A DNA stretch of 20,000 bases from Chromera velia (taxonomy: Eukaryota; Sar; Chromeraceae). Position 1 is the stretch's first letter. Every line of letters starts with the position of its first letter. The notes under the pieces are model-generated. The model made no database searches. It had not been told where the DNA came from and worked only from the letters and a program-made list of their open reading frames with translations. Positions 2,931-13,375 of this stretch are shown here, one piece after another. Location: assembly GCA_018398765.1 (NCBI GenBank), contig JAHBMJ010002889.1, forward strand, positions 4,892 through 24,891. The letters run 5' to 3'. A program made the translations under genes and the position numbers.

Positions 2931-3310
2931 GCGCGCGTGCACACAGAGGGGGAAAGAGACAGAGATGGATGGATAAATCGACGAACAAACCAGAAGAAGA
3001 ATTGATCCCCAATGAGAGAAGATCTCTGCAGGTAGGTGTGTGCTTTGAGACACATCTCTCATCTTTCTGGCTGCAGATAAGGGTGGGAACAACGTTCTTT
3101 GATTTATACACAGCCGTTTGTATTCATGAGTACCTGGATGCAGATTTGGCTGGCTTCAATCATTTTTCTCGCAGCAAATTCGGCCGTTCTCATCGCAGCG
3201 GTCCGCTTAGCCCCTCTCTAACAAAATTGTTAAACAGAAAGTGTCTGAAAGTCTTCCCGGAGGAATCACAATTAGTGCTAGGAAAAGGTTCAAGGTTCAC
3301 TTCGAAGTAA
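398..3310 (+). CDS. PIGM: GPI mannosyltransferase I (PIG-M / GPI14), C-terminal half, 7 exons
   Basis: PIG-M is an ER multi-pass GT50 enzyme that adds the first (alpha-1,4) mannose from dolichol-phosphate-mannose to GlcN-PI during GPI-anchor synthesis. Exons: 398-448, 683-743 (or to 794), 1299-1403, 1822-1863, 2194-2616, 2786-2845 and 3077-3310. Joined, they give about 324 residues in one open frame. Seen in sequence: YGWEFLYEAYLYHLVRK, DTRHNFSVVFYLLYL, FLQTLAFVAMNKVCTAQ and YFVWWMSLLPL. These match, in order, the family signatures [44 protein letters not shown] and YFLWYLCLLPL. The N-terminal half with the catalytic acidic motif lies before the window; codon phase shows that a preceding exon ends with two bases of a Glu codon. 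Oddities are a charged insertion of about 100 residues in exon 5 and a C-terminus running into an interspersed repeat. The family call is secure; the exon 2 donor and the true C-terminus are less so. Confidence 0.88.
683..743 (+). CDS. PIGM: PIG-M exon: DTRHNFSVVFYLLYL
   Basis: The acceptor CTGCAG is at 677-682. The first base completes the split Lys codon, then reads DTRHNFSVVFYLLYLLQTEA. This is the RHNFSPYFY signature with PY replaced by VV. Two donors keep phase 0 with the next exon: GTGACG at 744, which gives a family-like spacing, and GTCGGC at 795, which has a better exonic AAG but adds 17 residues. The first is preferred on spacing. Confidence 0.78.
1299..1403 (+). CDS. PIGM: PIG-M exon: transmembrane segment
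   Basis: The exon has 35 codons, phase 0 at both ends, acceptor CTGCAG and donor GTGGGT. It contains a hydrophobic helix (WGLSIFLGMFFA) and then SSERALPSALFLQ. This aligns with the PIG-M segment [24 protein letters not shown]. Confidence 0.85.
1822..1863 (+). CDS. PIGM: PIG-M micro-exon: TLAFVAMNKVCTAQ
   Basis: This 14-codon exon is in phase 0. The acceptor is ATGCAG and the donor is GTCAGC. It encodes the near-invariant FNKVCTSQ motif (here MNKVCTAQ). A 33-base (AC)n tract begins about 30 bases past the donor. Confidence 0.88.
1895..1927. repeat. (AC)n microsatellite
   Basis: About 16 perfect AC units lie inside the PIG-M intron after the MNKVCTAQ exon. Confidence 0.97.
2194..2616 (+). CDS. 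PIGM: PIG-M exon with charged insertion
   Basis: The acceptor is TTTCAG and the donor is GTGAGT; 141 codons, phase 0. It starts with YFVWWMSLLPL (family YFLWYLCLLPL) and ends with MRLEWWRDKRISTFG...GWLLCE, which corresponds to the MPWKRAVVLLMLWF region. Between them, where human PIG-M has only a few residues, lie about 100 residues rich in Gly, Glu, Lys and Ser (about 2240-2541). No CAG acceptor or pyrimidine tract lies inside, so this reads as a coding insertion rather than a missed intron. Confidence 0.85.
2786..2845 (+). CDS. PIGM: PIG-M exon: VHWLFWANKVENLGEPVFLQ
   Basis: This 20-codon exon is in phase 0. The acceptor is CTGCAG after a C-rich pyrimidine tract and the donor is GTGCGT. It aligns with the MWLAPAYVLEFQGKNTFLF loop that precedes the last membrane helix of PIG-M. 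Confidence 0.85.
2900..2946. repeat. (CA)n(CG)n alternating tract
   Basis: About eight CA units run into about eleven CG units and then TGCACACA, all strictly alternating purine/pyrimidine. It lies in the last PIG-M intron. Such tracts favour left-handed Z-DNA. Confidence 0.95.
3077..3310 (+). CDS. PIGM: PIG-M terminal exon, ends in a repeat
   Basis: The acceptor is CTGCAG, phase 0, and the stop is TAA at 3308-3310. IRVGTTFFDLYTAVCIHEYL corresponds to the last PIG-M membrane helix ([20 protein letters not shown]). About 57 further residues follow and look unrelated to the family. The last ones (GKGSRFTSK) and the stop are encoded by a GGTTCA word block. Splicing to a different end, or a different termination point, cannot be excluded. 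Confidence 0.72.
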   Translation: MRVGTTFFDLYTAVCIHEYLDADLAGFNHFSRSKFGRSHRSGPLSPSLTKLLNRKCLKVFPEESQLVLGKGSRFTSK

Positions 3311-3365
3311 TGAACCTGAATCAGGTTCAAAAACAGGTTCACTTCTATAATAGGTTCACTTTCAA
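3281..3365 (+). repeat. Word block A: GGTTCA cluster
   Basis: Five GGTTCA words (3287, 3294, 3324, 3336, 3353) and one reverse TGAACC (3311) lie within 72 bases. The block opens with a GGAAAAGGTTCA header shared with the other word blocks. It overlaps the last codons and stop of PIG-M. Confidence 0.85.
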
Positions 3366-3540
3366 TCAGTGCAAACTTGCCGTTTTTGACATTGTATTTT
3401 AAGTTTTTACATATTTTTTGAGCGTTTTCCTGATAGTTTTAGTGGTTTTTGATATAATCTAAAGATTGTGAAAGGTGATCTAAAGATTGTATATGAAATT
3501 TAAAACAAAAACGTAGGTTCAACACTGGATCTAATTTGTT
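3366..3540. other. AT-rich spacer
   Basis: No gene or motif was recognised. A direct repeat of TCTAAAGATTGT occurs at about 3459 and 3479. Confidence 0.4.
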
Positions 3541-3660
3541 AAGCGCTCCGGCCTAGGGTCCGGCCTGACTCGCCTTTGTGCCCGGCCCGCCTGGGCCGGG
3601 CCTGTCCCGCTTAATTGCCGGCCCTGTCTGCCCCCCATGGCCGGTGGCGCCGCCTCTAAC
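3541..3660. repeat. GC-rich CGGCC word block with hairpin
   Basis: The words CCGGCC, CGGCCTG and GGGCC recur in both orientations. A perfect inverted repeat (GCCCGGCCC, loop GCCT, GGGCCGGGC) spans 3580-3601. A weaker relative with CCGGCCTGAC is at 6193-6245. Confidence 0.7.
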
Positions 3661-3760
3661 CCCCTTGTCTAACCTTATCTACCCTTTAGCCCTACCGCGC
3701 CCCCCCCCCATAGCCTAGCCTGGCCCCTAAGCCTGGTCTGGCACTTTTATGGTCCGTTTT

Positions 3761-3873
3761 AGGGCTTGGAAAAGGTGCACCTCAGAAAAGGTGCAAACCA
3801 GACAGTTGCACCAGATATGCACCTGTTTTGTACCAGATGCACCTGATGCACCTGTTTTGCATCTGCATGATGG
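3761..3873 (+). repeat. Word block B: GGTGCA cluster
   Basis: The header AGGGCTTGGAAAAGGTGCA (3761-3779) is followed by GGTGCA at 3790 and reverse TGCACC at 3807, 3818, 3838 and 3847. CCTGTTTTG linkers separate some words. Architecture parallels block D, with G for T in every word. Confidence 0.85.
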
Positions 3874-5921
3874 AATGGAATTGGATGAAAAGTGTCAGCG
3901 TCATGGCCATGCAACGCGTTACGGCCCCGCCCCTGCGGCTCCTCGCGGCCCCAAACGCGCGCGTGTTGCCGGGCCGCGGTGCACGGAACAAATCCGATCA
4001 CCTGATTTTTGAAATGAAAATCGGCTGCATGCAGGGCTTACTATGGGCTCATTGCATGAACGAATGCACGTTCGACAACGCATATGCGCTGCATGAAATC
4101 AAGTCTAGCTATATCATGTGAGAACCTCTTCTCTTTGCAGCATGAGAACTGTTTTATAGGCTGCCCTATGTAACAGAAACGACTGCATGTGCACGTATAG
4201 CAACGAGGAGCACACGAAGGTAAAAGGATCAGAACAACAAGTTTGAGTTAAGAAGCTGCGCAAGCAGACTGAGTCCGTTTACAAAACAATGGCACAATGC
4301 TAAACGGTTTGCCGGGAGGAAAACAGCTTTGTCGACCTTTGGCAATCAAAGATGAATGCCAACACAGTGCTGTACGGAGATTCTTTTTCATATTAATATG
4401 AAGAAAAGAAGCAGAAACGGCACACACATGGGAACACGCATACATGAAGGTACGTCCCTCCTGGTTGTAGGTAAGGACTTTTGAAACCTGGTGCCGGGCG
4501 CTCTTTACGATTGGCGGGCTCGATCTATCTTAGTCAGTAAGAGTGCAATTGGTTTGATCATTCAATTTGCTGCTTTGCGTCAGAGAGTGGAACCATTCGT
4601 CACTTCCGTCTGCTGATGGCTCGTCAAGTTTGCATGCTTACATACAGATCTGTATCTGACTTTCTGTCATACCACGGCTTTTCGTTGCGTTTGGTATTTC
4701 CAGAAGGTTTGAAGACCGACTGTAAAGGGAAGTGCAGCTTTCCTAGGGGCGTTCACCCCTTCGTTTGCGAGTCGTCAGTCATACCGGTCCTGTATACCGG
4801 TCACTGCTGTTAATCACTTCTCAATTTCACAAACCGGGGCCCTGTCCAGATAAACGGCTTCACACAAATGTCAGCAAACAAAAGAAAAGCTATTCAAAAA
4901 CAGAGAGAGCCTTCTTTTGGATCTGAAGACGGAGAAAATACTTGTACCAGCCACATAGATCCTTGCAGGTGGCTCAGAAGGGTATGGAAAGACATGCTAA
5001 TCTGGATGAACATCATGAATTAAGCCGGGTCAGTCGGAAGAAGAGGGTCTGGGGTTAGGAATCGCACCTGTCCGACTCTGTCCATATTTTTCTCATTCTT
5101 CAAAGCCAAATTCAAATCAAAAGCCAAAGCCTCCCCTCCACCCCAACCAGCCCGCATCAAACCCGAGGAGTTTCTAGGGAACAAAGACGTCATACTCAGT
5201 CTGAGGTCGATTTTCAAGTTGGACTTTGAGTGAGAGAAAGTCTGTGAGGAGCCTGCTCTCTCCTCTTCTTTCTCCTCTTCTTCTTTCTCCCCTTCCTCTT
5301 TTTTGTCTAGTTTTTGTCCTCCGTTGTCGTTTTGGGGAGGGGGGTGAGTGAAAAAGAGAGCTAAGGTATGATGGGGCTGGGCTCTGAGCCTCTGAGATCA
5401 GGCCCTCGCTTGCCCTTGCTCAGAGATGAAATCCAAAAAAACCTTCCTTTGTTTCATTCTTTCTTCTTTTTCTTTTTCATGAAAACGCACCATTTGTGGT
5501 TGCTTTCTTCAGGAGTTTGCTCCAAAGGGGCACGCGTGTGCAGTTTGAAGGATTTATGGATCGTATAAGCTAAGACACAACTAGACTACGGTGCAGCACG
5601 CAAACGGCGCCAAACATATTCAAACGCTATAGAGCATACATACAAAGCATTGAACAGGTTTTAAATGAAAAAAAGAGACCCAGAAAGAGACCGAAGTCAT
5701 AATATAGTCAGAGACATATAGTCTTTAATTGCATGCAAGATTTTTTTTTTTTTCGTCTTTTCACTGATATTTCTGCTGACATTTTATGTTGTTTTGCACA
5801 TTAAAAGTTTGTGTAGCTATGCTATATCATAAAAAGCTTTTAGGCTTTGAATGAGGTGCCTTTTGGCCGCTAGAAACAATAAAAATCAACCGTAGAAACC
5901 TAGTTGTCATATGGTAAACGG
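3874..5921. other. Intergenic stretch, no recognisable gene
   Basis: The largest open frames are under about 100 codons and none resembles a known family. Small structures seen: TGCATG-type words at about 4026-4110; a perfect 16-base palindrome TTCATATTAATATGAA at 4387-4402; two TACCGGTC copies at 4782 and 4795; a pyrimidine-rich run at about 5255-5310; and a poly-T run near 5742. A short frame at 4868-5023 (starting MSANKRKAIQKQ) is unrecognised. Confidence 0.5.
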
Positions 5922-6016
5922 TACACCTTATTTTGCACCTATTTTGCACCTGATTTAAGGTGCAAACTTGTTTTTGCATCAACACCAGCACCTTATGCAC
6001 CTTTTCTCAGCCTTAG
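5922..6016 (-). repeat. Word block C: GGTGCA cluster, inverted
   Basis: TGCACC at 5934, 5945 and 5996, GGTGCA at 5959, and near-matches TACACC and AGCACC. Read on the minus strand it begins with GGCTGAGAAAAGGTGCA, the same header type as blocks B and D. Confidence 0.8.
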
Positions 6017-6112
6017 TCCGTTTGACCCCAAATTGGTCCCCAATTATCCGAGCCCGGCCAAAGAATGCCAGAAAGCGCAGTCGTGACTCGTAAATACTCG
6101 TGAATAAATTAA

Positions 6113-6132
6113 AACAACTGGAAACAGTTGTT
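6113..6132. repeat. Perfect 8-bp hairpin with GAAA loop
   Basis: AACAACTG, GAAA, CAGTTGTT. In RNA this would be a stem capped by a GNRA tetraloop. No flanking element or function was recognised. Confidence 0.6.
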
Positions 6133-6192
6133 CTTTAGTACCATGTATAAATTAACTTGCTAGATAGACAGTTCCGGCTCTCTATTTCTCCT

Positions 6193-6245
6193 AAGCCGTG
6201 GGCAGGCCAGGGCGGCGCACCCCGGCCTGACCAGGCTTGTCCTAT
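6193..6245. repeat. Short GC-rich block related to 3541-3660
   Basis: It contains GCAGGCCAGG and CCCCGGCCTGACC, similar to the CCGGCCTGACTC of the earlier GC block. It lies beside word block D, as the earlier GC block lies beside block B. Confidence 0.5.
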
Positions 6246-6300
6246 ATTGGCTATGTGCGTGCATAATCCTAGGCATGGTCATGGCATGGTCTCAAAAACA

Positions 6301-6413
6301 GGTTCAAAACAGGTTCACCAGGTTTAATAGGTTCAAAACAGGTTTAACAGGTTCACTTTTCAGATTTCAACTGAGATTTGAACCTTTTCTAAATAAACCT
6401 TTTCCCAACCCTA
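6301..6413 (-). repeat. Word block D: GGTTCA/GGTTTA cluster, inverted
   Basis: GGTTCA at 6301, 6312, 6330 and 6350; GGTTTA at 6321 and 6341; TGAACC at 6379; TAAACC at 6394. On the minus strand it starts with AGGGTTGGGAAAAGGTTTA and repeats AACCTGTTTTG linkers. This is nearly the same layout as block B with a different word. Confidence 0.85.
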
Positions 6414-6461
6414 ATCACAATTCACTTACTACTACATCTATGGACCACCTTCTTTTTTTAG

Positions 6462-6643
6462 CTGTCAGGATAGTAACTATTCCAGAATAGTACACTATTT
6501 AATACTATTCTCTCGAATATTCTTCGACGTTTTAAATTTTTTGTACTATGAATAGTTTACTATTCATGAATAGTATACTGTTCTAATTTCCTGTCTAGAA
6601 ATACTCTAAAATAGGTTGAATAGTATACTATTCTCACTGTCAG
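6462..6643. repeat. Word block E: GAATAGTATACTATTC palindromes
   Basis: A perfect palindrome GAATAGTATACTATTC lies at 6618-6633, with close copies at 6550-6565 and 6568-6583. Looser copies lie at 6468-6483 and 6485-6510. The block is flanked by direct CTGTCAG heptamers at 6462-6468 and 6637-6643, possibly a target-site duplication. It could be a foldback or MITE-like element. Confidence 0.7.
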
Positions 6644-7797: not shown

Positions 7798-8020
7798 TCC
7801 GCTCTCATGCATCTCACCCCCCTCCGCTCTCATGCATCTCACCCCCCTCCGCTCTCATGCATCTCACACGCCTCCGCTCTCATGCATCTCACCCTCCTCC
7901 GCTCTCATGCATCTCACCCCCCTCCGCTCTCATGCATCTCACCCTCCTCCGCTCTCATGCATCTCACCCTCCTCCGCTCTCATGCATCTCACCCCCCCTC
8001 CGCTCTCATGCATCTCACCG
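7798..8020. repeat. 25-bp tandem repeat, about 9 copies
   Basis: The unit is a constant TCCGCTCTCATGCATCTCA plus six variable bases, mostly C (CCCCCC, CACGCC or CCCTCC). One copy has seven C, and the last runs out after CA. Each unit carries the palindrome ATGCAT. It starts about 140 bases beyond the helicase stop, so it may lie in its 3' UTR. Because 25 is not a multiple of three, all three plus frames stay open, giving spurious frames. Confidence 0.95.
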
Positions 8021-8157: not shown

Positions 8158-11100
8158 TCACGAGGACCCCCCTTTCTTCCTGATGTACTCGTCGATTGCC
8201 CACCGGGGAATGTTGTACTTTCGCTGAAGCTCCTTACCCCTTCCGTCTGTTCCGTCGATCATGGAAGTCAACTGAGGAACAGACATTGCATCGAGCATCG
8301 CAGACACACCCGCAGACAAACTACTGCCCCCACCTGAAGAAGGGGCAGAGCTACTCTGCTGCTGCTGCTGTGTGACTTCCGGTTCTTCCGGCTCCTCTTC
8401 CTCTTCTTCGCTGCTTTCTCCGTACCCCAGATTCTTCATCATCGTTGACTCACCCTTGACTCTCTTCGGCTTCTTGAACTCTCCACGCATTCCCATCGGG
8501 GCCCGCCCTCCTCCCCGACCGAACCCTCCACGTCCTCCACCACCACCACCGTACCCTCCGCGTCTCACGCCGCCAAACCCCCCAGAGGGCCGTGAGAACC
8601 CCCCTCCGGCGTGGCCTGCACTAGCTGCAGACCCCCACGCACCCGTGTTGATCGTGCCGGATGTTCCTGTTCCCCCGCTCCGGCCCCAACCGGAGGCGGA
8701 GGAAGAAAAAGGAGCCGGAGCATTTTGTCCGAGTGGCCTCGGATTTTGCCCGAGTAGCCTCGGACGATTGGCACTTGCTGCTGATGCTGCAGGGGGGCGG
8801 GAGGAAGAGGAAGAACCCCACCCACCTGCTGCAGATCCCCACGCAGTCGTGTTGATGGGCCGGGGGGCTGTCTGCTGCTGCTGCTGCTTCGGCTGGGGTT
8901 GCGGGCGCACTTTCGGCTTCGGGGCTGCGACAGTCGAAGTTGCGAGGGGGCGGGTGGGTGCTGACGAGGTGGTCGCCCACTCGTCTCTGAAGGTCGAGGA
9001 TGAGGATGGCGCTGTTGGTTTGGGTTTGGCCATGGGAACAGAGGGTGCGGTCTGTCCTCCGTTCCTCTGCTGCTGCTGCTGCTGGACTTGCTCTCTCGTT
9101 TTGAGTACGACTGGAACTCCCGACCCCGACTGTGGCTGGGATGATGCAGAGGCAGGGGTCGACTGCTGCTGCTGGGTTTTCAGAGAAACCATACGCACAG
9201 GGGGAGTCGTTTTCTGTTGTGAGGTAGGGGTGGTTTGGGAAGCATTGCAGAGATTCCACGAAGGGTGTGTGTCGTCGGGGGTGGAGACGCTCGAAGAGGC
9301 CCCTTGACGACTTGCAGGTGTTTGGTCCCCCTGGGAACCCATGGACAGTCCCCTGCCTGCTCTGGCAAGGGCGTTGCGGGCAAAGTTGGTGGCAAAGAGG
9401 GAAACACCCCGACTGTCCTTCTCGGCCTGTTTTGCCTTCAGGGCAGCTTCTGCCTTCCATCTGGCAAACTCTTCTGCTCTTCTCTCCTCATCTCGTCGTG
9501 GTCTCTCCCTTCTGTCTCTCTCTCTTTCCCTTTCTTCCTCAACCTCCCGCCCCCGTGCTCGCATCATGCGGCGCTCACGAAGCGAGTATATTTCGTCGTC
9601 CCTGCTGTCATCGGAACGCCGAGACACAGTGCCCCCCCAATCTGCCTCTCTTTCTTTGATCTGCGTCGCTGTGGGTGCGCGGGATCTGGGCGACGAGGGT
9701 GAACGGCTGGGGCCGGTGGATGGGTGTCGGGATGCACCCCGCGAGGAAGCTTGGTGTCTCTTCTCTTCTTCACTTCCCCCCTCTGAGTCCGAAATGACCA
9801 CCACGACGTCTTCCTCCCTCTCCTCCAACTCTCGCAATGCAGCCGCACGAACGCTTGTCGGCTGTTGGGGTGACTTCTTCTGCTTCTGCGTTTGCGGTTG
9901 TCGCTGGTCGAAGGACGTGGGCTTCCTGGCAGGAGAGGGGGAGTCAGACACGACGTGAACACCCACAGAGCCCACACCGGAAAGACCAGACACCCCCCTG
10001 CCAGTCGCAGTGGAAATTCCAGAGACGCCCCTGGATTGATGTCTCTTCTGCTGGTTGCTGCTGGGGGTTTGTTGTTTGGGGCTGGCGGGGAGATCATCGT
10101 CTTCCATGCCCCCCTCCAAATCAGCGTAGGAGTTGGGGCTCCCGTCTGCGAGGAAATCGGGTGGGCCCGCAAAGGAATTCTCCCTCCGCTCAGACGATCG
10201 CAACCTACTGAACCCCTCTTGAGACCCGGACTTCTTCTTCTGGTGCTGCTGGGGGCCGTACGAACCAAAGTCCCATAGGGAGAGGTCGGGAAGGAGCCTC
10301 TTGTTGTCGGGACGACGCGCGCCGATAGGAGTTTCAGCTGACACACGCGCAGCTATCATGCCTCCAGTAGGCATACGAGACTGCACGGGTCGGGTCGAGG
10401 GGGCAGGCTTGGTTGCAATAAGCTCAACTGTGTCGGGAGTGTCGCTCTTGTCGGTGTCTGAGATGGGAATGCTGCGGTAAGCGGAGCGCGGGGCTTTCGT
10501 TTCTTTGACTTCGCTGCGTCTGTTTCTCCTTCTGAGTCTCTTCTTGGCGGCATCGTACTTCTCTTGGACGAATTCGACCTCGGAATCGGACTCAAAGATG
10601 TCAACAGCGGGTTTTTGGGGTGGAGGCTGCTTTGTCTGAGGATCGGGGGTGTTGGTTTGGGTCTGATGGGGTCGGTCTGCCTCTGAAGACCCGTTGGGGG
10701 GGGGCTGTCTGCTTGGCGGCATGGGGCTGCCTCTGAGGCTTTTGGCTTTGGGCACATTCGGCTTCTTGTAGTTGAAAGCCACTCCTACAGGGACCATGAA
10801 GAGGTCAGGTACCTTGATGTTGTCCAAAAAAAGCACTCGCTCTGTGGCGAGACGGGAGAGGCGAACGAACTCAGACACGTCTGTGCGGAGAAGGGAAAAG
10901 GAGACGGAGACGTCTTGGTATCCCCTGTGTTTGTCAGGGGCCTCGAAGTGATGTGCGAAGGAGGGGGCTTTGTTAAATCGGACGATCAAGTCACTAACAA
11001 GCTCTAGTGCATGGAGTACGAAGTACATGTCCCGCCAGATACAGAGTTCCCCCTTCTCACTCATAGTCCCTCCCTCCCTCACAATGGACTGGCACACTGC

Positions 11101-11892
11101 CGGGGAATTTCCGAAAAAATTAAAGAGAACGAGGGAATCGAATCGGAAGGCCGACATCCTCTTCTGCCCCGCACACTGAAGGTACCTAGGCACACCCCTG
11201 GTCAAACCACAAAAACCAACGACCCCCTCAGGGACCCTCTCAAGGAGGACAGCAACCACCAGAGCTTCTGCGTAGGACACAATCTTGTGTGCAAACACAA
11301 ACAGTCTACCCTTCTCCCTGTTGGATGAGATTTGCTCGTCCAGTTCTTCGTCATCCCTAGGAGCCTCGAGAGGTGCATCGAGACCCACGAGGTCACACAG
11401 TGTGTGGGCATCTGCGACGTTTCGACAGACGAGAAGTGCGGTCTGGACACGATTGCGCATTGAGGGCACTGAATCTGCCCCCCTGTCATCGTCATGGTCT
11501 GCTGCAGTGTGGCGGCGCCCTGGGTCGCTCTGGTGCTGTCCCTCCAGACACGCAGGCCCAAAGGGACTCGGAAGGAAGGCCGCGAGGGTGCGACGCCAGT
11601 GGGCGTATGTGTCAGTGCCCTGCTGCCCTCCCGTCTTCCCCACCCACACTCCGCCCTGACTTCCGTTGAGCCCTTTCGGTGCTCTGATCTCAACAGAGGC
11701 CGCCCCTCTGACAAGGAGGGGCATGGTGTCCTCTGGGAAGGGGAGACGGAGAGAGGCCAAGGCAGACACACGGTGTGTCAGGAGGGCCTGTACCTCAGTT
11801 GCGGTTCTGCCCTCCGAGTCCTCGGGAGAGGAGGGGATCTCGGGTGGCAGGGAGCTCAGGGGGAGACGGGAGATGACGGAGAGCGCAGAAGC
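8158..11892 (-). CDS. Helicase terminal exon: motif V, then low-complexity RGG/polyQ tail
   Basis: 1,244 codons plus the TGA stop; acceptor CTGCAG. About residues 1-375 of the exon finish the helicase-like fold: RVQTALLVCRNVADAHTLCDLVG, RLFVFAHKIVSYAEALVV, and AFRFDSLVLFNFFGNSP (the TRANK1-type motif V). No TRAR-like motif VI is visible afterwards. From about 10750 downward the chain is disordered: acidic patches, polyQ (about 8357-8371, 8870-8889, 9068-9085), Arg/Glu-rich helix, and RGG repeats (about 8465-8600). The last 50 residues (AMLDAMSVPQLTSMIDG ... IPRWAIDEYIRKKG) look folded. Confidence 0.85.
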   Translation of the reverse strand, partial: ASALSVISRLPLSSLPPEIPSSPEDSEGRTATEVQALLTHRVSALASLRLPFPEDTMPLLVRGAASVEIRAPKGLNGSQGGVWVGKTGGQQGTDTYAHWRRTLAAFLPSPFGPACLEGQHQSDPGRRHTAADHDDDRGADSVPSMRNRVQTALLVCRNVADAHTLCDLVGLDAPLEAPRDDEELDEQISSNREKGRLFVFAHKIVSYAEALVVAVLLERVPEGVVGFCGLTRGVPRYLQCAGQKRMSAFRFDSLVLFNFFGNSPAVCQSIVREGGTMSEKGELCIWRDMYFVLHALELVSDLIVRFNKAPSFAHHFEAPDKHRGYQDVSVSFSLLRTDVSEFVRLSRLATERVLFLDNIKVPDLFMVPVGVAFNYKKPNVPKAKSLRGSPMPPSRQPPPNGSSEADRPHQTQTNTPDPQTKQPPPQKPAVDIFESDSEVEFVQEKYDAAKKRLRRRNRRSEVKETKAPRSAYRSIPISDTDKSDTPDTVELIATKPAPSTRPVQSRMPTGGMIAARVSAETPIGARRPDNKRLLPDLSLWDFGSYGPQQHQKKKSGSQEGFSRLRSSERRENSFAGPPDFLADGSPNSYADLEGGMEDDDLPASPKQQTPSSNQQKRHQSRGVSGISTATGRGVSGLSGVGSVGVHVVSDSPSPARKPTSFDQRQPQTQKQKKSPQQPTSVRAAALRELEEREEDVVVVISDSEGGSEEEKRHQASSRGASRHPSTGPSRSPSSPRSRAPTATQIKEREADWGGTVSRRSDDSRDDEIYSLRERRMMRARGREVEEERERERDRRERPRRDEERRAEEFARWKAEAALKAKQAEKDSRGVSLFATNFARNALARAGRGLSMGSQGDQTPASRQGASSSVSTPDDTHPSWNLCNASQTTPTSQQKTTPPVRMVSLKTQQQQSTPASASSQPQSGSGVPVVLKTREQVQQQQQQRNGGQTAPSVPMAKPKPTAPSSSSTFRDEWATTSSAPTRPLATSTVAAPKPKVRPQPQPKQQQQQTAPRPINTTAWGSAAGGWGSSSSSRPPAASAASANRPRLLGQNPRPLGQNAPAPFSSSASGWGRSGGTGTSGTINTGAWGSAASAGHAGGGFSRPSGGFGGVRRGGYGGGGGGRGGFGRGGGRAPMGMRGEFKKPKRVKGESTMMKNLGYGESSEEEEEEPEEPEVTQQQQQSSSAPSSGGGSSLSAGVSAMLDAMSVPQLTSMIDGTDGRGKELQRKYNIPRWAIDEYIRKKGGSS

Positions 11893-13375
11893 CTGCAGGA
11901 AAATGAGAAAGAGAGAGAGCTTGAGTGAAAGATCGCATGGAAAAGGGGGGGGCAGGGAGACTACCCCGAGGGGGTCATGTGAGAGTTTATTCGTTTTCTC
12001 TTTCATTCCTTCTCTGTTTCCTTCCATTTTTTGGTGACAGCAAGAGGGTCCTGAACGATCATCAGTCAAGGGATGGTCAGGCACACATTGAGAAAGAAAA
12101 GGCTTTCGAACTCATGCAACCGTCAAAGAGGAACAAACTGATCATTTTGCCATCGGGGAAGACCAAACAAAGGAGAAGGAAGCTGACCTGGAAGAGACTC
12201 GGTCTTGTCGCGACACATCGGGAAAGGTTCCCGAGGCGGCCTGCGAACAGCGCCGTCTGCCTGTCTGTGAAGGCCTTTGCCAGCAGATGGACGTTGGCGC
12301 TTCTCATCCGCACAGACTGAAGAACTTGGGGTGCCGACTTGCTCCCTCCCCCCTTTTTATCCTCAACAGGAGGAGGAAGGGGGAAAGCAGGCGGACCGAG
12401 GGGGAGGCAGACTTTGTGGAGGGAGGAGAGAAGGGCAGAGATCGGCACAGGCCCCTCTTTCTCTCCTGTCTGCATCAAGGAGGGAGGGAGGGAGGGAGGA
12501 AGAGGTGACAGAGCATACCAATCGAGACATGCAGGAGAAAGGACGCCTTGCGTCGATGTGTGGAGGTGAGAGCGCGGGAGCGTACAAGGGACGAATTGCT
12601 GAAAGGAAACTCCCTTTTCTGCTTTGAATTTTTGGTTCCTTCCGGAGGACGGCGAGATTAAATAAAAGACGGAGAAATACAGAGAGAGAGAGAGAGAGAG
12701 TCCACGTCGCCGTGTATTCCCAGGGCTTCGAAAATGAAGAAAAGGGACTGCTTTCCCTCTGTAGTTCTCCCGGCCTTCGCGTTTTCCACCCGCATTTTCA
12801 TCTTGTCTTTTGCCTCTAACGGAAGAAAACTGAGGGCAATCTCGGGAGACCGCAAAAACATATCATGAACATCCCTGCTTATCCTTCTTCTTCGCTGCCC
12901 ATTTTTTCGCTCTGTCTCTGTGTCCTTCCAGAAGAGAAAAAACTTTGAACAGACTTCTGCTTGCTCACTCACTCACTCATTCACTCACTCACTCATTCAC
13001 TCACTCACTTACCGCATCCGCAGTCATGGTCAGATTCCCAGACCCCCTCTCCCTTCTTGCGTTGTCGATCAGAGCCCGAAAGAGTGCGAGCTCCGTCTTC
13101 GTCACAGTCTCGCAGTCGTCAATCATGAGAAAATCAGGACGCCACAGCCACTCCCATCGTTCAGGAGGGGAAGGGGCAAGCTTCTCCTTCTCCTCAGATG
13201 AGGATGACCCCTCGGGGGCTGAGGGGGTCGACACAGAGACTCCGGAAGCGTAGGCCAGAAGGCTGAGAGATAGCTCGGAACGGGTCCACTTCTTCTTCTC
13301 GTCGCTCTGTCCTTCTGGCTGGGCCATGCTGTACCTGCACACATAGACACACACATGTATATATATGCACACACT

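Follow-up and report, generated by a model that had tools for sequence, protein, structure and literature searches.

Elements of the hAT type have a short imperfect TIR that starts with YARNG and are moved by a hAT transposase, which combines an RNase H-like fold with a C-terminal dimerisation region; the maize element Ac makes 8-bp duplications, and those of the Mutator-like VANDAL elements are ~9 bp. In maize Ac/Ds, the Ac transposase binds subterminal AAACGG hexamers, and hexamers that bind the transposase lie within ~200 bp of the element ends, with the caution that some hexamer-less Ds1 elements still move and some hexamer-bearing Ds-like elements do not (PMC3260210). Hermes uses BED domains to bind AAG(T/C) repeats, and nTnnnnAn is the target pattern reported for it (PMC10368747). 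The VANDAL elements of Arabidopsis carry arrays of a short motif, the units of which are described as having 'diverged together' (PMC5735166).

The window (the whole 20,000-nucleotide stretch of Chromera velia DNA that was analysed) contains four blocks of a repeated six-base word, which are real and lie where an earlier note on this DNA had placed them. Words were counted with a GGTNYA scan of both strands, which returned six GGTTCA, one of them inverted, in block 1 (3281-3365); seven GGTGCA (five inverted) and one GGTACA in block 2 (3761-3873); four GGTGCA and one GGTGTA in block 3 (5922-6016), with an overlapping GGTACA from 5920, just outside the block; and five GGTTCA and three GGTTTA in block 4 (6301-6413). 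Blocks 1 and 4 have T as the fourth base of the word, blocks 2 and 3 have G, and the fifth base is either C or T. The claim that each block uses one word throughout therefore stands for the fourth base, with the single GGTACA of block 2 as exception, but not for the fifth. The header AAAAGGTKYA, which accompanies the words, occurs six times in the window vs 0.20 expected, and none of 200 shuffles gave six occurrences.

What the earlier note had missed is that the blocks are element ends accompanied by exact 8-bp duplications: the four blocks are the subterminal ends of two hAT-like DNA transposons that carry no gene and lie one inside the other. Block 1 pairs with block 4 and block 2 with block 3, because exact 8-bp copies flank each pair (ATCACAAT for the outer, GTCCGTTT for the inner), and the GGTGCA pair is nested within the GGTTCA pair. 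The features are as follows.

3265..3272, no strand: 8-bp target-site duplication ATCACAAT, left of the outer element (exact)
3273..6413, plus strand: outer transposon, GGTTCA family (exact duplications, word arrays)
3287..3358, no strand: left subterminal array of the outer element, six GGTTCA, one inverted (word scan)
3752..3759, no strand: 8-bp target-site duplication GTCCGTTT, left of the inner element (exact)
3760..6015, minus strand: inner transposon, GGTGCA family, 2256 bp (exact duplications, word arrays)
3774..3852, no strand: subterminal array of the inner element, seven GGTGCA and one GGTACA (word scan)
5922..6001, no strand: subterminal array at the other end of the inner element, four GGTGCA and one GGTGTA (word scan)
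6016..6023, no strand: 8-bp target-site duplication GTCCGTTT, right of the inner element (exact)
6301..6399, no strand: right subterminal array of the outer element, five GGTTCA and three GGTTTA (word scan)
6414..6421, no strand: 8-bp target-site duplication ATCACAAT, right of the outer element (exact)

The outer transposon has the ends TAGTGCTAGGAAAAGG (left) and TAGGGTTGGGAAAAGG (right, minus strand), and the inner transposon, which sits within it in the opposite orientation, has TAGGGCTTGGAAAAGG at 3760 and TAAGGCTGAGAAAAGG at 6015 (minus strand). In the window, then, an element of the GGTTCA family served as the insertion site of one from the GGTGCA family. With the inner element subtracted, along with a single copy of its duplication, the outer transposon measures 877 bp, a length inside the 733-1699 bp span of 22 other duplication-bearing GGTTCA copies. 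Because the insides of GGTTCA copies vary, the inner insertion point is spanned by a single locus, L014 on contig C48 (75% identity, 309 bases); apart from this one, no examined locus aligned over it at E values up to 1e-10. A known RNA family was also considered and was rejected, the window having no Rfam match at gathering score.

Three other features of the window were recorded. Just beyond the right end of the outer element, positions 6476-6633 hold four ACTATTC and four GAATAGT words within ~160 bases, perhaps the end of another transposon family. A 25-base tandem unit is present at 7798-8019 in 8.8 copies (95% matches), and a 1308-codon open frame with a low-complexity C-terminal part occupies 8158-12084 on the minus strand, for which no Pfam match was found at E values up to 0.001.

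The earlier note had proposed a whole-assembly search for the header followed by words as a check on the blocks. When the assembly (177.8 Mb, 4040 contigs) was searched for the linked word pair pattern GGTNNAAAACAGGTNNA, 604 matches were returned vs 6 for the reversed pattern; the blocks are not unique to this locus, and the reading of them as a curiosity of one locus was rejected. The assembly also has 58 matches to light-harvesting domains, very probably marking a photosynthetic eukaryote, and the one such protein compared with PDB had distant matches only, the best (E 4.5e-34) being to a longer chain. An exact R-end pattern of TIR plus word gave 190 matches vs 0 in the control across the whole assembly; this pattern fixed GGT and the final A of the word and could reveal changes at the fourth and fifth bases only. 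Counted by eye among the 100 of these 190 R ends that were listed, 70 carry GGTTYA and 30 carry GGTGYA, and TIR position 8 is T in all 30 of the latter and in none of the 70 former. The terminus TAGGGCTTGGAAAAGG is followed by a non-GGTG word in two cases genome-wide, both GGTA. The left-end core of the GGTTCA family gave 135 exact matches vs 0 in the control, and scoring 40 of 177 candidates for the middle part of the inner element yielded at least 46 matches (81-100% identity). A third word, with A or C at position 4 and the double header, was sought and gave 15 matches vs 30 in the reversed control; hence there is no further family of this exact double-header layout with A or C at that position.

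Among the examined loci, 30 complete copies with an 8-bp duplication were recovered (23 GGTTCA and 7 GGTGCA, both window elements included); the search accepted one mismatch at most, and 26 of the duplications are exact while 4 have one mismatch. For GGTGCA end pairs chosen without the duplication criterion (nine of ten pairs were testable), seven duplications are exact, one has a single mismatch and one pair has none. Locus L116, in which no R end was found, was left out of this set. The copies have short imperfect TIRs and an 8-bp duplication, and at either end ~4-9 words in both orientations lie within ~110 bp of the terminus; the longest stop-to-stop frame among the 30 is 187 codons. The number of words per end is 4-8 (left) and 5-8 (right) in the GGTTCA family and 4-7 and 5-9 in the GGTGCA family, all within 112 bases of the end, and the arrays begin inside the TIR itself.

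Putative membership of the hAT group is supported by the length of the duplication, the target pattern and the TIR. Duplications of 8 bp flank both window elements (exact), the 30 complete copies and 8 of the 9 unselected pairs. The insertion sites fit nTnnnnAn, with T at position 2 and A at position 7 in 36/60 each when both strands of the 30 sites are counted, and the termini TAGGG, TAGTG and TAAGG are of the YARNG type. With Ac/Ds, the families share several hexamer copies near both ends (here 4-9 words within 112 bases), as well as their make-up as short non-autonomous elements that have little in common beyond TIRs and subterminal hexamers (PMC3260210), and we predict that GGTTCA/GGTGCA ends would work as Ac/Ds ends do. 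They differ from Ac/Ds in word and TIR, in the presence of two sibling families in one genome with words one base apart, and in that no autonomous partner was found among seven hAT-domain loci. They resemble Hermes in having repeats near both ends and in both orientations, which in Hermes are BED-bound, and in the nTnnnnAn target (PMC10368747), but Hermes has the motif AAG(T/C) and asymmetric ends, and no transposase was seen in the elements described here. The likeness to VANDAL is that subfamilies differ, across the whole array, in the type of motif they carry (C-type or T-type) and that tandem units are gained and lost; however, the described VANDAL motifs sit within non-coding parts of the element, all face one way and are bound by an anti-silencing protein, whereas those studied here are terminal and in both orientations (PMC5735166). 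Membership of the Mutator-like VANDAL group was rejected on the 8-bp duplications and the terminal arrays in both orientations.

The genome has seven PF05699 (hAT dimerisation) loci, six of which form two repeated lineages, three loci in each, while the seventh stands alone. The two lineages are degraded and comprise L041, L042 and L039 (contigs C2757, C1964 and C1530) and L043-L045 (C600, C4004 and C475). No GGTTCA/GGTGCA arrays were present beside the seven loci in the flanks examined, up to ~1.5 kb a side, and five fragments of the two lineages had no tblastn match (E up to 1) to the 30 elements or the C48 stretch. This stretch holds a 2.9-kb GGTTCA-type element with matching 8-bp flanks and a degraded R end, for which no transposase match was found. 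Across the seven hAT-domain loci and the C48 element, no partner transposase could be tied to GGTTCA/GGTGCA ends. In the L041/L042/L039 lineage, the 3' part has 41 matches at 93-100% identity, and GGTAAC/GTTACC words were seen by eye in its end region, which may possibly represent that family's own subterminal word.

The earlier note had proposed that the T/G difference is correlated across words far beyond what independent mutation would give, and that the blocks might belong to a diverged repeat family with a word kept uniform within each copy. Both proposals are borne out. Where the first word of a linked pair has T or G at position 4, to which the mixed-pair counts apply, four T-first pairs have a non-T second word (one of them T/G) and 17 G-first pairs have a non-G second word (one G/T and 16 G/A), leaving 2 of 604 linked pairs T/G-mixed. 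Among aligned ends (GGTTCA, 23 left and 23 right; GGTGCA, 17 left and 16 right), a single GGTGTA is present in 1 of the 23 GGTTCA left ends, and none of the 33 GGTGCA ends has GGTTYA. The end consensuses of the two families were aligned with word position 4 masked, from copies pre-sorted by majority word, and scored 141 at the right end vs -11 for the best of 500 shuffles and 52.5 at the left end vs -0.5 for the best shuffle. Eight words align word to word at the right end (of 8 and 9) and five at the left (of 6 and 7). All 13 shared words show the same T/G difference between the families, vs 0 of the 62 remaining positions in those words; at linker/TIR positions, 26 of 105 differ (10/57 right, 16/48 left). 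We conclude that the words of an array changed together, and that this happened at both ends. At the linker rate of about a quarter, the calculated chance of 13/13 is near 1 in 10^8, even where the same base is not demanded. Despite the changed word, the right arrays of both families retain the same order, orientation and pattern of long and short linkers, and the three short linkers of the right array changed alike between families in the consensus alignment. The interiors of the two families showed no similarity to each other, and we therefore limit the claim of common descent to the ends. The blocks are thus transposon ends, as a reading of them as ordinary transposon fragments would have it, but their word positions are specially correlated.

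We then considered how the uniformity of the words arises, bearing in mind that the earlier note had suggested copying between words. C-to-T changes at word position 5 in the 23 GGTTCA copies have a variance ratio of 0.99 of the binomial, and this independent decay speaks against ongoing word-to-word copying in inserted copies. Divergence from consensus, computed for GGTTCA right ends and for GGTGCA right and left ends with word position 4 set apart, is higher in words (58/920) than in linkers (48/1308) at GGTTCA right ends, lower in words (18/651 vs 44/877) at GGTGCA right ends and slightly higher in words (18/510 vs 30/1112) at GGTGCA left ends, so that words show no consistent advantage over linkers in conservation. 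Position 4 itself diverges at 9/184, 16/143 and 9/116, respectively. Continuing conversion among the words of inserted copies was rejected on both grounds and, because decay is unclumped and words are not consistently better kept, uniformity seems to have been set in the source elements, without later maintenance. In inserted GGTGCA copies, position 4 is often A (16 of the 17 odd linked pairs) and diverges more than the linkers do, as C-to-T on the other strand would give. A broader version of exchange, in which conversion, slippage or unequal crossing-over within the array keeps the words uniform without selection by a transposase, draws on the differing unit counts per copy, on gains and losses of 7-, 9- and 12-base units seen in the alignments, on the short right-end linkers that changed alike and on the attribution of VANDAL arrays to tandem repeat formation (PMC5735166). 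We nevertheless consider it unlikely, given the independent decay of words in inserted GGTTCA copies and the retained order, orientation and linker pattern of the right arrays, which wholesale re-amplification from one word would erase. Exchange within an array, moreover, does not by itself bring the two ends of an element into agreement. Since unit numbers vary and the three short linkers changed alike, unit turnover probably helps at the level of the source, but alone it does not make the two ends agree.

Two other readings bear on what the words are for and whether they are anything at all. The words could be targets of a factor other than a transposase, such as a host transcription factor or an element-encoded anti-silencing protein of the VANC kind, which binds short array motifs in VANDAL that differ by family (PMC5735166); arrays lying within ~110 bp of both termini and starting in the TIR, as transposase sites would, and the absence of any visible protein-coding gene in the elements (longest frame 187 codons, 30 copies) make this improbable, in our judgement decidedly so. 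The window is rich in simple repeats, and chance or low-complexity sequence might be invoked for the blocks; the pattern matches (604 vs 6 and 190 vs 0), the header count (6 vs 0.20 expected) and the exact 8-bp duplications leave it a negligible prospect, and it was rejected.

We think it quite probable that the blocks represent two related families of hAT-like cut-and-paste elements, short and without genes, with a word that is read by a putative family-specific transposase. By analogy with AAACGG in maize Ac, the word is most likely the predicted binding site of each family's own transposase, which would be encoded elsewhere in the genome. Such a transposase may grip the word several times at both ends in assembling the cutting complex, and copies with words unsuited to the current transposase would stop jumping, which would leave one word per family, the same at both ends. 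The families, which share an end layout, may have parted as the preference of the transposase moved by one base (T/G at word position 4), with the words following at both ends, perhaps aided as short tandem units were gained and lost; once inserted, a copy would decay without upkeep. More tentatively, and in our view less likely than not, the genome may hold two sibling transposase/end systems set apart by a single base read several times per end; each word of the array would have been altered where it stood, leaving layout and linkers intact.

The statement in the earlier note that no described element behaves in this way does not hold, the Ac/Ds hexamers (PMC3260210) and the VANDAL arrays (PMC5735166) being precedents. 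Set-wise change of a motif is already described for VANDAL (PMC5735166), and GGTTCA/GGTGCA adds a clear-cut new case to a known class; the portions of the open-licence literature searched yielded no case of a subterminal word changed wholesale between hAT families. The pair represents well-behaved short hAT-like families, which genome annotation should mask. A transposase that reads one word many times poses a puzzle of coevolution, as its preference cannot shift unless every word shifts with it. If the tentative reading is true, the two families would be a natural record of a multi-site DNA-binding specificity rewritten without loss of function, and of two mutually exclusive transposon systems. 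With 13/13 words differing on a common layout and common linkers, the order of events could become readable from intermediate copies and, once these are found, the two transposases.
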